Positions 98-5,458 of a stretch of 64,000 nucleotides of DNA are shown in pieces. The notes below the pieces were generated by a model, which was not told the DNA's origin, did not search any database, and worked only from the letters and a program-made list of their open reading frames with translations. The stretch is taken from assembly GCF_000420825.1 (NCBI RefSeq), contig NZ_ATVR01000007.1, forward strand, positions 62,001 to 126,000, written 5' to 3'. Source of the stretch: Butyrivibrio sp. AE2015. GTDB lineage: Bacteria > Bacillota > Clostridia > Lachnospirales > Lachnospiraceae. Position 1 is the stretch's first letter; the number at the start of each line of letters is the position of its first letter. The translations under genes were made by a program, and so were the position numbers.

Positions 98-820
98 ATG
101 AGACACATATTTTGGGCAGGGGATTCAACTGTAGCCTGTAATAAGTTCAATACATATCCTCAGACCGGCATTGCGCAGGCCTTTGACAGATATACCAAGG
201 AAGATGTTGTGATATATAACCATGCTGTAAATGGCAGAAGCACAAAGAGCTTTATAGATGAGAGCAGACTTGCTGTTATTTATGATGAAATAACAAAAGG
301 CGATTATCTGTTTATACAGTTTGGTCATAACGATGAAAAGATAAATGATCCAACAAGATATACACAGCCACACGATGATTTTATTGTAAATCTCGGTAAA
401 TTTGTAAATGTGGCAAGAAATAAAGGGGCTTATCCGGTATTTATCACATCAGTTGAAAGAAGGCTTTTTGATGAGAATGGCAATTTAAAGCCATCTGAGC
501 ATACAGAGTATGTGAAAGGAATGAAAGAGGCAGGAGAGAAGTTTAATGTTCCTGTAGTTGATCTTTTTACAATGAGCCGCAGTTTCCTTGAAAAGACAGG
601 GGATGAAGCTTCCAAAAAGTACTATATGAATCTTGCAGCAGGTGAAGCTGATTGGGCACCTGAAGGGAAAATAGATAATTCGCATCTGAAATATGAGGGA
701 GCACTTCTTTATGCTGGAATGATAGCAAAGGGACTTTCTGAGCTTGATGAACCATATAGGTCACTTGTTATTGATAATCTGGCGCTTGCCAAATACTTAG
801 ATATTGAAACAAATGGTTGA
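98..820 (+). CDS. GDSL/SGNH acetylesterase, rhamnogalacturonan-acetylesterase-like
   Basis: 240 residues with no signal peptide, so cytoplasmic. All SGNH blocks are visible: GDS with nucleophile Ser10 at the very N-terminus, Gly46 in NGRS, Asn78 in GHND, and a DNSH catalytic pair (Asp193, His196). The form 'FWAGDSTV' and the overall length resemble rhamnogalacturonan acetylesterases (family CE12). Such enzymes remove acetyl groups from pectin or, in related members, xylan oligosaccharides. The start is an ATG preceded by a strong AAAGGAGAG site. It heads an operon with two GH43 enzymes 20-30 bp apart, so deacetylation of imported oligosaccharides before glycosidase attack is the likely job. 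Substrate (pectin versus xylan) cannot be settled from sequence alone. Confidence 0.85.
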   Translation: MRHIFWAGDSTVACNKFNTYPQTGIAQAFDRYTKEDVVIYNHAVNGRSTKSFIDESRLAVIYDEITKGDYLFIQFGHNDEKINDPTRYTQPHDDFIVNLGKFVNVARNKGAYPVFITSVERRLFDENGNLKPSEHTEYVKGMKEAGEKFNVPVVDLFTMSRSFLEKTGDEASKKYYMNLAAGEADWAPEGKIDNSHLKYEGALLYAGMIAKGLSELDEPYRSLVIDNLALAKYLDIETNG

Positions 821-842: not shown

Positions 843-2525
843 ATGTCTTATTCAGATTTAGGCTCAAAATATAGAAATCCGATTATTTTTGCTGATTACA
901 GTGATCCTGATGTCATCAGGGTGGGTGATACATATTACCTTACTGCATCAAGCTTTAACTATACACCAGGGCTTCCAATCCTTATTTCAAAGGATCTTGT
1001 TAACTGGAAGCTTGTAAATTATGCTCTTAACAATATTAAGGAAAAGAGATTTGATATTCCCCGCCATTCAGAGGGAGTATGGGCTCCGGCTATCAGATAC
1101 CATGAAGGAGTGTTCTATATTTTTTACGGAATGCCTGATGAGGGATACTATGTTGTAAAAACTAAAGATCCTCTTGGAGAGTGGGATGAACCTGTGTGCC
1201 TTTTGGAAGGAAAAGGCCTTATTGACTGTTGCCCATTTTGGGATGATGACGGAAGGGCCTACATTATACATGGATATGCCAAGAGCAGGATTGGATTTAA
1301 GAGTATTCTTGGAATATTTGAAATGAGCCCTGATGGAACAAAGGCTCTTACTGAAGATCATTTTATCTTTAACGGAAATGATCCGGAACACCCTGCTGTG
1401 ACTATTGAGGGACCAAAGGTATATAAAAGAGATGGATATTATCATATCTGGGCTCCGGCTGGCGGTGTTACAGATGGCTATCAGGTTGCGCTTAGAAGCA
1501 AGAACATCTATGGACCTTATGAGATAAAAGAAGTAATGCATACCGGAAATACTGTTATCAATGGACCTCATCAGGGAGCCCTGGTTGATACTGTAAATGG
1601 AGATGAATGGTTTATTCATTTTCAGGACAGAGGCCTATATGGAAGAATATGCCACCTTCAGCCTGTCACCTGGAAAGATGGATGGCCAATTATAGGTAGT
1701 AACCCGGATGAAAACGGATGCGGTGAGCCTGTTTATGAATATACTAAGCCAAATGTTTCAAACGACCTTGACCTAGAGGATACAGGGCTTTTTGCATCTG
1801 ATGATTTTGAGAATGGAAAATATAATTTATCATGGCAATGGCTTGGCAATCATTATGATTCTTTTTACGGCCAGATACCTGATAAAAAAAATGGTCTAAG
1901 ATTATATGCCCTTAACACAAGTTCTGAAAATGAGCCTGTTATCTGGAAAAGTGCCAATGTTCTTACACAAAAACTGATCTATCCAATGTTTGAAATGAAG
2001 ATCAGGATGGATGCTTCCGGATTAAATATAGGTGACAGAGCAGGCGTATGTATGACAGGAGGCCAGTATATGGCCGCATATATCGAGAGAGTATCTGATG
2101 AGAAGTATGTAATAAAAACAATTCATTCAGAGGGAACGGATTCTGATAAAAAAGAAGTTACAGACAAAGATATCGATTTTTCAAAAATCTGCTATAATTA
2201 TGAACTTGCCGCTTCAGATGCGTTAAAAGACATTACATGGACCATGACATTTTCCCACTCGGATAGTAGTTTGAAATCAGAAGATATGTATTTTCAAAAT
2301 GTTCATAATCCTCTGGGAGGTGAAAATCCTAGTCTTAAAATAAAACTTAGTATTGGTGCATCAGATAATGAGAAACAGGGACTTGACCTTGGAGCCAACT
2401 ATACTCCGTCAGATCATACGTGGGTTGGTGCAAAGATTGGTATTTTTGCTATTTCTAATAATATAGAGAATTCTCACCCTGGATATGCTGACTTTATTTC
2501 TGCAAATTTAGATATTTTGGTATAG
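843..2525 (+). CDS. GH43 beta-xylosidase / alpha-L-arabinofuranosidase with C-terminal beta-sandwich
   Basis: 560 residues from the ATG at 843, which has a GGAGGAG site 6 bp upstream; an in-frame TTG at 804 lies inside the previous gene and lacks a site. Residues ~10-310 form the five-bladed GH43 propeller with the usual acidic trio: Asp21 (YSDPD), Asp128 (GLIDCC) and Glu189 (IEGPK). Residues ~330-560 look like the concanavalin-like domain found at the C-terminus of many GH43 xylosidases/arabinofuranosidases. The motif HFQDRGLYGR is typical of subfamilies acting on arabinoxylan side chains. No signal peptide, so it acts on imported oligosaccharides. Second gene of the operon. Arabinofuranosidase versus xylosidase specificity is undetermined. 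Confidence 0.88.
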   Translation: MSYSDLGSKYRNPIIFADYSDPDVIRVGDTYYLTASSFNYTPGLPILISKDLVNWKLVNYALNNIKEKRFDIPRHSEGVWAPAIRYHEGVFYIFYGMPDEGYYVVKTKDPLGEWDEPVCLLEGKGLIDCCPFWDDDGRAYIIHGYAKSRIGFKSILGIFEMSPDGTKALTEDHFIFNGNDPEHPAVTIEGPKVYKRDGYYHIWAPAGGVTDGYQVALRSKNIYGPYEIKEVMHTGNTVINGPHQGALVDTVNGDEWFIHFQDRGLYGRICHLQPVTWKDGWPIIGSNPDENGCGEPVYEYTKPNVSNDLDLEDTGLFASDDFENGKYNLSWQWLGNHYDSFYGQIPDKKNGLRLYALNTSSENEPVIWKSANVLTQKLIYPMFEMKIRMDASGLNIGDRAGVCMTGGQYMAAYIERVSDEKYVIKTIHSEGTDSDKKEVTDKDIDFSKICYNYELAASDALKDITWTMTFSHSDSSLKSEDMYFQNVHNPLGGENPSLKIKLSIGASDNEKQGLDLGANYTPSDHTWVGAKIGIFAISNNIENSHPGYADFISANLDILV

Positions 2526-2540
2526 GGGATAAAAATTATT

Positions 2541-4538
2541 ATGGATGCTGGAAATATAACTATATATGATGCAGCAAAAAAAGGGGATTTTGGGCTCGTA
2601 AAATGGATCGTAGAATATTCAAGGTCAAGCCTTAATGAATATGCTAAGGGGCACAGAACTGCTCTGCATTTTGCTGCAATGTCCGGAAATTTGCAGATGT
2701 TTAAGTATCTTACAGAAAGGTGTGGCCTTGATCCACTAAAGGGTGATATAAATCTTGTAACACCCTGGGATATAGTACATGACATTGCAGAGAACGGCTC
2801 AAAAAGTGAGTATGCTGTTGTGGGTAGTATCTGCAATCAGGAGCATAAGGAAATAGAGCTTTATCTGGAAAAAAGATATGCTCATTCCTATGATGACTTT
2901 TACAGGAATCCGATAAGAGCCGGATTTTTCCCGGATCCGTCCATTTGCAGAGTCGGTGACGATTACTACATGGTCAATTCATCATTTATCTTTTTTCCAT
3001 GTATCCCAATCTCACATTCAAAAGACCTGATACATTGGGAGATAATAGGCCATGCTATTACAAACCCTGACTGGGCTTATCTTGATGAACTTGAAGGTGG
3101 AAGGGGCTATTGGGCACCTGATATTTCTTTTTATGAAGGCAGATTCTATATAACAGCAACTTATAGACTTAATGATGTGGGACCGGTTTACCGCAGGCAG
3201 ATAGTTGTATCTTCAGAAAAGCCGGAAGGACCATACTCCGAGCCTGTGTTCATTGATGAGGATGGAATTGATCCAAGTATCTTTAATGACGATGATGGCA
3301 GAAGGTACATGCTTCTTAACAGGGGAGCCAGGATTTTCGAACTTAGTAAAGGTGGTACAAAGAAAATATCTGAGCCCCAGCTTCTTTTCTACGGAGATAA
3401 TAAAAGAGCTCCCGAGGGACCACACTTATATAAAAAAGATGGATATTATTATCTTCTCGAAGCAGAAGGCGGAACAGGCCCCGGACATATGGTAACTGTT
3501 TCAAGGAGTAGAGAACTCTTTGGAGTTTACGAACCATGCCCATATAACCCTATAATGAGACAAAAAGATCCTGATGCGCTTATTCAGCGCTGTGGACATG
3601 GTGATATGGTTGAAACTCCCGATGGCAGATGGTACATGGTCTATCTATGCGGCCGTAAAATAGGAGATGGCTACAGTATTCTTGGAAGAGAAACAGCTAT
3701 TGATCCTGTTACATGGACTGCAGACGGATGGCCGATTGTTAACGACCTTAAGGGGCCATCAACCATGCAAATCAAGCCTTTTCCTGATCTTACAGGGATT
3801 TGGGACTCAACTGATATACATAGTGAAATAGATAAAGAAAAATGTAGTACCCTTCTTGAATCGGAAGAAGTAAGTATTGTCAGGAATATATCGTCATGCG
3901 GACTTCCTCTGGATTATATGACACCTCGACCATTTAAAAATGGTGATGTGAAGTATATCAAAGGAGATGATGAGAATGAGCCTTCTTTTATAATAAAGGG
4001 TAGCAAGGCTCCTATTTCGAGTGTTGACAGTAGAAATCTGGTACTTAAAAGGCAGACATCTTTTTCATTTGAATATTCTGCATACATGGAGATTCCGAAA
4101 CTTTCTGAGGGCCAACATGCAGGTATTTCTGGCTACTATGATGAGAATACTTTTGTATTGTTTGGACTTATGAAAAAGGATGGTAAGTTGTTTGTCTTTT
4201 CTCAGGAACATATTGGAGATGAGGACAGATTGCTGGTATCAGATGAACCGGTTGACAGCTTGGCTAAAATGATCAGATTTTTCATGAATACTGATTACCT
4301 GAAAAGGACTTTAAGTTATGAGATTATTGGCGGGGATAAGCAAAATGCTGAAAAGACATATGGAAATGATTCTGAAGGCGTAATATTTGCTACACTTCCA
4401 GATGTATATTACCTGTGCGATGAAGGCTATAATAAAGGAAAACGCTTCACCGGAGCACTTGTTGGCATGTATGCTTATGGCGGTGAAAAAGCCCCTCTTA
4501 CAGTTCGGTTCAGTAATTGCAATTATATTGACATATAA
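2541..4538 (+). CDS. ankyrin-repeat / GH43 fusion glycosidase
   Basis: 665 residues. Residues ~5-110 form an ankyrin-like helical module: 'YDAAKKGDFGLVKWIV', 'TALHFAAMSGNLQMFKYL' and 'TPWDIVHD' match successive ankyrin helices. Residues ~120-420 are a complete GH43 propeller with Asp132 (FFPDPS), Asp244 (GIDPS) and Glu292 (APEGP) as the expected base, modulator and acid. The remaining ~240 residues resemble a beta-sandwich accessory domain. The fusion is uninterrupted in one frame with an AGGGGAT site before the ATG, so it is not an annotation artefact. No signal peptide. GH43 enzymes with this N-terminal part usually act as beta-xylosidase or exo-acting arabinosidase. The ankyrin part presumably mediates protein contact, perhaps with the neighbouring enzymes. 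Confidence 0.87.
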   Translation: MDAGNITIYDAAKKGDFGLVKWIVEYSRSSLNEYAKGHRTALHFAAMSGNLQMFKYLTERCGLDPLKGDINLVTPWDIVHDIAENGSKSEYAVVGSICNQEHKEIELYLEKRYAHSYDDFYRNPIRAGFFPDPSICRVGDDYYMVNSSFIFFPCIPISHSKDLIHWEIIGHAITNPDWAYLDELEGGRGYWAPDISFYEGRFYITATYRLNDVGPVYRRQIVVSSEKPEGPYSEPVFIDEDGIDPSIFNDDDGRRYMLLNRGARIFELSKGGTKKISEPQLLFYGDNKRAPEGPHLYKKDGYYYLLEAEGGTGPGHMVTVSRSRELFGVYEPCPYNPIMRQKDPDALIQRCGHGDMVETPDGRWYMVYLCGRKIGDGYSILGRETAIDPVTWTADGWPIVNDLKGPSTMQIKPFPDLTGIWDSTDIHSEIDKEKCSTLLESEEVSIVRNISSCGLPLDYMTPRPFKNGDVKYIKGDDENEPSFIIKGSKAPISSVDSRNLVLKRQTSFSFEYSAYMEIPKLSEGQHAGISGYYDENTFVLFGLMKKDGKLFVFSQEHIGDEDRLLVSDEPVDSLAKMIRFFMNTDYLKRTLSYEIIGGDKQNAEKTYGNDSEGVIFATLPDVYYLCDEGYNKGKRFTGALVGMYAYGGEKAPLTVRFSNCNYIDI

Positions 4539-4609: not shown

Positions 4610-5458
4610 ATGATGCAGATTGGTATTAGATTTCATGATACTGTAGAGCTCCCTTTTGAAGAGAGACTTACAGAAATAAAAAAGCAGGGCTTTTCCTGTG
4701 TTCATATTGCTCTTTCCAAGGTGCCAGGCTTTACTGCAGACCCAATGGCCCTTACACCAGGATATGCAATGTACTTGAGAGATGCTTTTAGAAGAGCTGA
4801 CCTTGATGTGGCTGTTCTTGGGTGTTACCTCAACCTTTCTAATCCTGATTCCGTGCAGCTTTCTGCAATTCAGGAAAAATATATGGCGCATATCCGTTTT
4901 GCCTCACTTCTTGGCTGTGGAATGGTCGGAACTGAGACGGGAGCACCAAATGTAAACTATTCTTATGATAAAGAAGCCTGCCATTCAAAAGAGGCTTTGG
5001 AAACATTTATCACTAATTTAAGACCGGTTGTAGAATATGCAGAAAAAATGGGCGTTATTGTTGCAATCGAGCCTGTTTACAGACATATTGTTTACAGCCC
5101 ACAGAGAGCAAGAGAGGTTCTTGACAGAATAGGATCTCCTAATCTTCAGATCATTTATGATCCTGTTAATCTTCTCTGGACAGATAATTACGACAGAAGA
5201 TATGAAGTGTTTGAAGAAGCTCATGATATTTTGGGAAAGGATATCTGCATGATTCATCTAAAGGACTGCGTTCTTACAGAAAATGGTGTAAAGAGCATGG
5301 GATGTGGCCTAGGAGAACTTGATTATTCAAGTATCGTGAAGTTTGCCCTTGATAATAAACCATTCATTCAGGCGACACTTGAAGATACAACTCCGGATGT
5401 GGCTGTTTCATCTCGTGAATGTATCGAAAAAGTAGAATATGAGTATCTGAAAAAGTGA
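4610..5458 (+). CDS. sugar-phosphate isomerase/epimerase-like TIM-barrel protein
   Basis: 282 residues belonging to the xylose-isomerase-like (AP_endonuc_2) superfamily. Metal-ligand positions are visible at the ends of barrel strands: GTETGAP, AIEPV, YDPVN, HLKD and ATLE. The start is the first ATG of an ATGATG pair, with a strong TTGGAGG site. It is the last gene of the glycosidase operon, 71 bp after the ankyrin-GH43 gene, and is followed by a strong terminator. The superfamily covers epimerases, isomerases and dehydratases of sugars, sugar acids and inositols, so the exact reaction is not predictable. Context suggests conversion of a released monosaccharide. Confidence 0.8.
   Translation: MMQIGIRFHDTVELPFEERLTEIKKQGFSCVHIALSKVPGFTADPMALTPGYAMYLRDAFRRADLDVAVLGCYLNLSNPDSVQLSAIQEKYMAHIRFASLLGCGMVGTETGAPNVNYSYDKEACHSKEALETFITNLRPVVEYAEKMGVIVAIEPVYRHIVYSPQRAREVLDRIGSPNLQIIYDPVNLLWTDNYDRRYEVFEEAHDILGKDICMIHLKDCVLTENGVKSMGCGLGELDYSSIVKFALDNKPFIQATLEDTTPDVAVSSRECIEKVEYEYLKK

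Follow-up and report, generated by a model that had tools for sequence, protein, structure and literature searches.

A GH43 glycosidase with a conserved N-terminal ankyrin domain in Butyrivibrio and related bacteria

A 665-residue protein encoded in the window (the whole 64,000-nucleotide stretch of Butyrivibrio sp. AE2015 DNA analysed here) joins an N-terminal ankyrin domain to a complete GH43 glycosidase; it is real, is conserved across many related bacteria and is a GH43 variant for which the titles and abstract openings of the open-licence literature yielded no description. The accessory domains described for GH43 enzymes are usually carbohydrate-binding or sandwich domains, and enzymes that trim oligosaccharides in the cytosol are usually pictured as diffusing freely. 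Our main reading, to which we give an even chance, is that of a cytosolic GH43 exo-glycosidase carrying a rigidly docked ankyrin domain with a structural or quaternary role, rather than a flexible tether. The conserved ankyrin, together with three arrangements in which the enzyme (GH43-B, or B) or its ankyrin-less sister type is fused to its GH43 neighbour (GH43-A, or A), makes this a testable case of gut and rumen bacteria organising their intracellular sugar processing. In the available parts of PMC6344614 and PMC2914790 the word 'ankyrin' does not occur, and PMC6801697, within its available text, counts ankyrin proteins and GH43 enzymes separately.

Architecture of the protein

The features of the locus are the following.

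98..820, plus strand: GDSL esterase, first operon gene inside the window (Pfam Lipase_GDSL_2, 1.6e-10)
843..2525, plus strand: neighbouring GH43-A with GH43_C2 and no ankyrin, stopping 15 bases before the ankyrin-GH43 start
2541..4538, plus strand: ankyrin-GH43 protein (GH43-B), 665 aa
2562..2879, plus strand: ankyrin domain, three helix pairs, residues 8-113 (Pfam, phmmer, AlphaFold2 helices)
2901..3734, plus strand: GH43 catalytic domain, residues 121-398 (Pfam PF04616, E 2.9e-84; VIA-align)
2934..2936, plus strand: catalytic Asp132, invariant in 71/71 aligned rows
3270..3272, plus strand: catalytic Asp244, invariant in 71/71 aligned rows
3414..3416, plus strand: catalytic Glu292, invariant in 71/71 aligned rows
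3993..4511, plus strand: GH43_C2 concanavalin-like domain, residues 485-657 (Pfam PF17851, E 8.9e-17)
4610..5458, plus strand: xylose-isomerase-like TIM barrel (PF01261, E 1.6e-28), with kin in 25 of the listed ankyrin-type loci L001-L066

The frame at 2541-4538 is open from its ATG, with an in-frame stop close upstream and AGGGGA 11 bases 5' of the ATG, which bears out the single frame and good start site of the first-pass annotation. The GH43 profile scores 283.3 bits against a curated cut-off of 32.2, and the invariance of Asp132, Asp244 and Glu292, which correspond to the catalytic Asp/Asp/Glu triad of the family, agrees with the intact triad claimed earlier. Both the GH43 propeller fold and the GH43_C2 sandwich are found (Z 50.1 to 6ms3; PF17851), the C-terminal domain being absent from that annotation. 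No signal peptide was seen on inspection of the protein by eye, in support of the cytosolic location first proposed.

The ankyrin-like helices formerly placed at residues ~5-110 are recovered by Pfam, phmmer and structure prediction. Searched with the whole protein, Pfam places Ank_4 at 9-57 (E 1.2e-8) and Ank_2 at 10-64 (E 3.6e-6), with Ank_4, Ank_2, Ank_3 and Ank above their gathering scores, all inside residues 9-65, and Ank_5 below its own, and residues 1-122 by themselves match the solved ankyrins of latrocrustotoxin (2.4e-18) and espin (5.8e-18) in phmmer. AlphaFold2, run on the whole protein with 71 aligned sequences (mean pLDDT 91.1, pTM 0.90), gives an ankyrin fold with helices at 8-14, 17-26, 41-48, 51-60, 75-88 and 99-113, that is, three pairs; a relative with a fuller ankyrin (L005) is predicted with four (pLDDT 95.4, pTM 0.93). 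The last ankyrin helix, at 99-113, is followed by the first GH43 strand at residue 120, mean pLDDT being 95-97 over residues 101-130 and 82 over 91-100, and values below 50 occur only where the catalytic domain leads into the C-terminal one, at 423-425 and 427-445. As modelled, the ankyrin-to-GH43 junction is not a flexible linker. None of the 50 listed VIA-align matches has ankyrin in its description, and 48 of them begin at residue 116 at the earliest, the exceptions 7erl and 7jvh beginning at 70; since the listed matches are all GH43 chains, the fold search barely tests the ankyrin part.

The ankyrin domain and the GH43 enzyme are a genuine fusion. A one-off accident or annotation error is ruled out by the ankyrin standing in frame in 65 of the 79 listed loci (by eye) and by the stop close upstream of the window protein's start, and a known GH43 subdomain is ruled out by the listed VIA-align matches and by the ankyrin-less relatives, which begin directly at the GH43 domain.

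Distribution and phylogeny

The loci listed are the best 79 of 563 confirmed stretches from a scan of genome contigs, so that their proportions should not be taken as frequencies. The ankyrin type comprises L001-L066, with 65 in one frame and L053 through a shifted frame, while L067-L079 have no ankyrin. By title, the listed loci come from Butyrivibrio, other Lachnospiraceae, Solobacterium/Erysipelotrichaceae, Clostridium puniceum, Gemmiger formicilis and one Spirochaetales MAG, and a protein of Monoglobus pectinilyticus that matches over residues 12-662 is annotated just as 'family 43 glycosylhydrolase'. Within the window's genus the ankyrin type occurs in 36 of 79 genomes (32 with a match starting at residue 1-9, plus G001, G077, G002, counted through a shifted frame, and G073, assumed to be the genome of L038, both having an 890-residue frame), and five more carry a fused type without ankyrin. 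Recurrence of the architecture is also seen in the ankyrin alignment, 61 members including the window protein and L005, each of which is matched by Ank_2 (at E 0.01), GH43 and GH43_C2. Because ankyrin-GH43 is the sole Ank_2 match in the window's genome, and the GH43 fusion the sole one in 5/6 other genomes scanned, the ankyrin domain is not genomic background. G001 has, besides its GH43 fusion, a separate 171-aa ankyrin frame (C1:1769806-1770171).

A quick tree built from 150 GH43 catalytic domains separates the A type (57 rows) from the B type (93 rows); 72 ankyrin rows fall in a 75-row branch (support 89) with L053, L090 and L091, and 18 ankyrin-less B rows form a second branch (support 86). 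A careful tree of 83 rows, five A rows serving as outgroup, likewise unites the ankyrin-less B rows in one clade (98/93, in 99% of bootstrap trees), with 63 ankyrin-type rows (frame-shifted L053 and L091 included) and L090 on the other side in a weak branch (41/82). L053 and L091 are ruled out as ankyrin losses, both being frame shifts with the ankyrin readable in another frame. L090 groups with L061 (100/98), two long branches meeting, so its position is less sure. The simplest account of these trees would be a single gain of the ankyrin followed by its loss in L090; because the branch joining the ankyrin rows is weak, the common ancestor may instead have had the domain already, with the ankyrin-less clade losing it.

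Conservation within the ankyrin domain

An additional N-terminal repeat, which the first-pass annotation did not mention, is present in 46 of the 61 aligned ankyrin rows and missing from 15, the window protein among them. Over these rows the canonical paratope positions have a mean conservation of 1.63 bits (n = 14), against 2.66 bits at the outer positions of helix B (n = 8) and 2.80 bits in the post-helix loops (n = 8), a difference significant by Mann-Whitney (p 6e-4; p 0.003 without the consensus-hydrophobic positions) in a comparison made within this ankyrin family alone. The positions with which ankyrins usually bind are 2, 3, 5, 13, 14 and 33, the register here being set by eye, and 2 of the 14 are exceptions in being strongly conserved (3.29 and 3.53 bits). 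Judged from the alignment, the usual ankyrin binding face is variable here and the convex side conserved.

Mean pairwise identity is 0.37 for the ankyrin, 0.35 for the C-terminal domain and 0.69 for the catalytic domain. An ankyrin as variable as the C-terminal domain is equally compatible with a loosely constrained accessory, and could be a passive extension for solubility or stability, kept by descent; the absence of the first repeat from 15/61 rows also favours that reading. We consider it very improbable: of the 75 rows in the branch, 72 keep the ankyrin and two more are frame shifts in which it can still be read, and residues outside the ankyrin consensus are conserved.

On the enzyme itself, 24 positions distinguish the 61 rows with an ankyrin from 10 without one; 7 of these positions fall within 154-190, and the set includes 184-190 and 633-639. 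By comparison with GH43 xylosidase structures, 154-190 presumably lies near the catalytic pocket, and 184-190 and 633-639 presumably line the active site. The presence of the ankyrin may accompany a change of specificity, and the 24 positions may mark nothing beyond such a change. In L038:3957-6626 a Ser/Asn-rich insert of ~100 residues interrupts the last ankyrin repeat, and the C-terminal part holds a repeated Glu-rich stretch.

Gene neighbourhood

Read by eye, the operon comprises, 5' of the window, an altronate-dehydratase-like gene, a binding protein and two permeases, followed by the GDSL esterase, GH43-A, ankyrin-GH43 and the TIM-barrel isomerase. On the opposite strand lie two genes named by eye, one uronate-isomerase-like and one for a LacI-type regulator. 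The L001 relative of the altronate-dehydratase-like gene matches GD_AH profiles and the permeases were identified by Pfam, while kin of the binding protein gave no Pfam match, the name resting on a lipoprotein-like start and on position. The esterase is a partial match to the pectin acetylesterase PaeY (56 bits vs a cut-off of 1000), and GH28, GH88, pectinesterase and alpha/beta hydrolase genes appear in addition at some related loci. This gene content, of the operon and of related loci, points to pectic oligosaccharides and to a pectin/galacturonate uptake operon; the cutting of a pectic side chain, xylogalacturonan or arabinan, would fit. The accessible part of PMC2914790 reports an intracellular location for the majority of GH43 enzymes in B. 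proteoclasticus B316 and for every GH28, GH88 and GH105 enzyme of that strain.

For GH43-A, a mechanical ORF call (804-2525) starts at TTG 804 and overlaps the esterase; the start at 843, used in the first-pass annotation, seems likelier. An exporter-type ABC protein (ABC_membrane + ABC_tran; L012:9855-11618) has kin in 24 of the listed L001-L066, in or near the sugar-uptake operon and often directly after ankyrin-GH43; no such gene is present in the first 14 kb of the window.

Kin of the binding protein and of the two permeases occur in 31, 34 and 33, respectively, of the listed L001-L066 stretches, which would suit an ankyrin that binds some other cytosolic partner, such as the inner face of the importer or a regulator, and so places the enzyme where oligosaccharides enter. 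That reading is improbable in our view, given partial mirror-tree values for the ankyrin of -0.05 and -0.16 with the two permeases and -0.11 with the binding protein, and given ankyrin-B genes in stretches without the importer; in L005-L008 and others the gene stands without this operon around it. The esterase, proposed in the first-pass annotation as a tethered partner, finds no direct support in that role: L028 and L031 keep it without A adjoining, and L005-L008 have neither esterase nor A beside the gene. The ankyrin-esterase mirror-tree value is 0.25 (2/300 permutations), lower than the 0.38 (0/300) of the B C-terminal control, and the ankyrin-isomerase value is 0.20 (17/300); we base no conclusion on either.

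Relationship to the neighbouring GH43

Of the 66 listed ankyrin loci, 43 have GH43-A within the fetched stretch. Searches of the whole genome for 22 of the remaining 23 (all but L059) found A elsewhere in 16 and none in six, namely L037, L040, L050, L052, L053 and L061; the same search was positive for L027, L034 and L043, where A is in the stretch itself, making 19/25 altogether. At a laxer cut-off the six still show no A, five of them matching just the B gene itself and the genome of L053 also a 511-aa GH43 at 125 bits. Five of the six are MAGs, possibly incomplete, and L061 (Gemmiger formicilis) is an isolate; L050, L052 and L061 form one divergent group with L090. Within the window's genus A is found in 36/36 ankyrin-B genomes, in the five fused-B genomes by fusion, and in 6/38 of those with neither ankyrin-B nor fused B, one of these (G076) a weak partial match. 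Elsewhere in the class A is present at >400 bits in 12/12 ankyrin-B genomes sampled outside the genus.

The two enzymes also occur as single chains. An A-Ank-B fusion is encoded by a single 1189-aa frame (L043:6348-9914), A-B fusions without ankyrin are found in L076 and L086-L089, and L090 is a B-A fusion without ankyrin; the L043 and L090 arrangements are known from one record each. The ankyrin-free fusions, in both orders, measure 1045-1113 aa. The five A-B fusions sit in the ankyrin-less clade (in the quick tree, and four of them in the careful tree), and L090 is placed inside the ankyrin branch, so that order and tree position together indicate at least three A/B fusion events. Elsewhere, a 1270-aa open frame at G332:C22:5520-6917 has a stretch like GH43-A (125 bits) and is perhaps a multi-domain fusion.

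Co-occurrence and the three fusion arrangements are good evidence that A and the ankyrin-type GH43 are functionally linked and act together, in line with the link to the neighbouring GH43 first suggested. Whether the ankyrin forms that link is a separate matter. Docking of A by the ankyrin, giving a two-enzyme cytosolic complex to which the covalent A-B fusions elsewhere would be equivalent, draws on the contrast of 36/36 with 6/38 genomes in the genus, on the 12/12 genomes outside it, on the 43/66 loci with A at hand and on the A-Ank-B, A-B and B-A arrangements, with L090 lacking an ankyrin inside the ankyrin branch; repeated A/B fusion suits this reading better than our main one. We nevertheless judge it unlikely, if a serious contender. 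Six ankyrin-B genomes, one an isolate, are without A; the usual ankyrin binding face is variable; L043 retains its ankyrin despite being fused to A; and a shared pathway and operon could explain co-occurrence without contact. With the catalytic domain controlled for, the partial mirror-tree correlation of ankyrin and A is 0.13, a value attained in 34/300 permutations (n = 46), and the C-terminal domain of B scores higher with A (0.26, 0/300), so no specific ankyrin-A signal beyond descent is seen in this set. Fusion as a replacement for a lost ankyrin could apply at most to L090, the five A-B fusions lying in the ankyrin-less clade. The fuller proposal, an ankyrin-held cytosolic complex of GH43-A and ankyrin-GH43 for pectic side chains that gene fusion replaces in other lineages, is rather doubtful; were it true, it would be a bacterial intracellular enzyme assembly for such side chains.

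A proposed docked ankyrin module

The tether of the first-pass annotation is possible but not supported, in view of a predicted junction that is no flexible linker, the variable binding positions, the six genomes without A and the five ankyrin-free A-B fusions in the ankyrin-less clade, and a structural or quaternary module is favoured over it. The conservation pattern, the lack of a mirror-tree signal, the A-less genomes and the fused L043 that keeps its ankyrin argue for a docked module with a contact on its convex side, most simply with the enzyme that carries it or with a dimer of that enzyme; the docking on GH43 is read from pLDDT and pTM only. The 24 positions that set the ankyrin-bearing enzymes apart also count in favour of this reading. 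In our main reading a putative β-xylosidase/α-L-arabinofuranosidase type enzyme would trim imported pectic oligosaccharides in the cytosol, and the N-terminal ankyrin would be a standing component throughout one branch of the family. The domain may use its conserved helix-B/convex side to pack on its own enzyme, or on a second copy, and so might fix either the rim of the active site or the quaternary structure. It is plausible that GH43-A associates with the enzyme, not necessarily through the ankyrin.

Comparison with known systems

The closest structural counterpart, BlXynB of Bacillus licheniformis (6ms2, 6ms3), has the GH43 domain and C-terminal β-sandwich of residues 119-665 of ankyrin-GH43 (6ms3: Z 50.1, 495 residues aligned, 1.7 Å, 42% identity), whereas its aligned chain of 511 residues holds nothing matching residues 1-118. 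The same two-domain fold is found in the β-xylosidases/arabinofuranosidases of Selenomonas ruminantium (3c2u) and Bacteroides ovatus (BoGH43A/B; 5jow, 5joz), with Z of 43.2, 44.2 and 44.4 and 29-32% identity, again with nothing matching residues 1-116. Xsa43E of Butyrivibrio proteoclasticus (4nov), a GH43 of the same genus, aligns over just the catalytic domain (Z 27.7) and, from the part of PMC6344614 available, has a C-terminal CBM6, not an ankyrin. Espin (5et0) and the designed ankyrins share the repeat sequence and helix pairs of the domain described here; unlike them, this ankyrin is fused to a glycosidase and is conserved on its convex side instead of the usual face.
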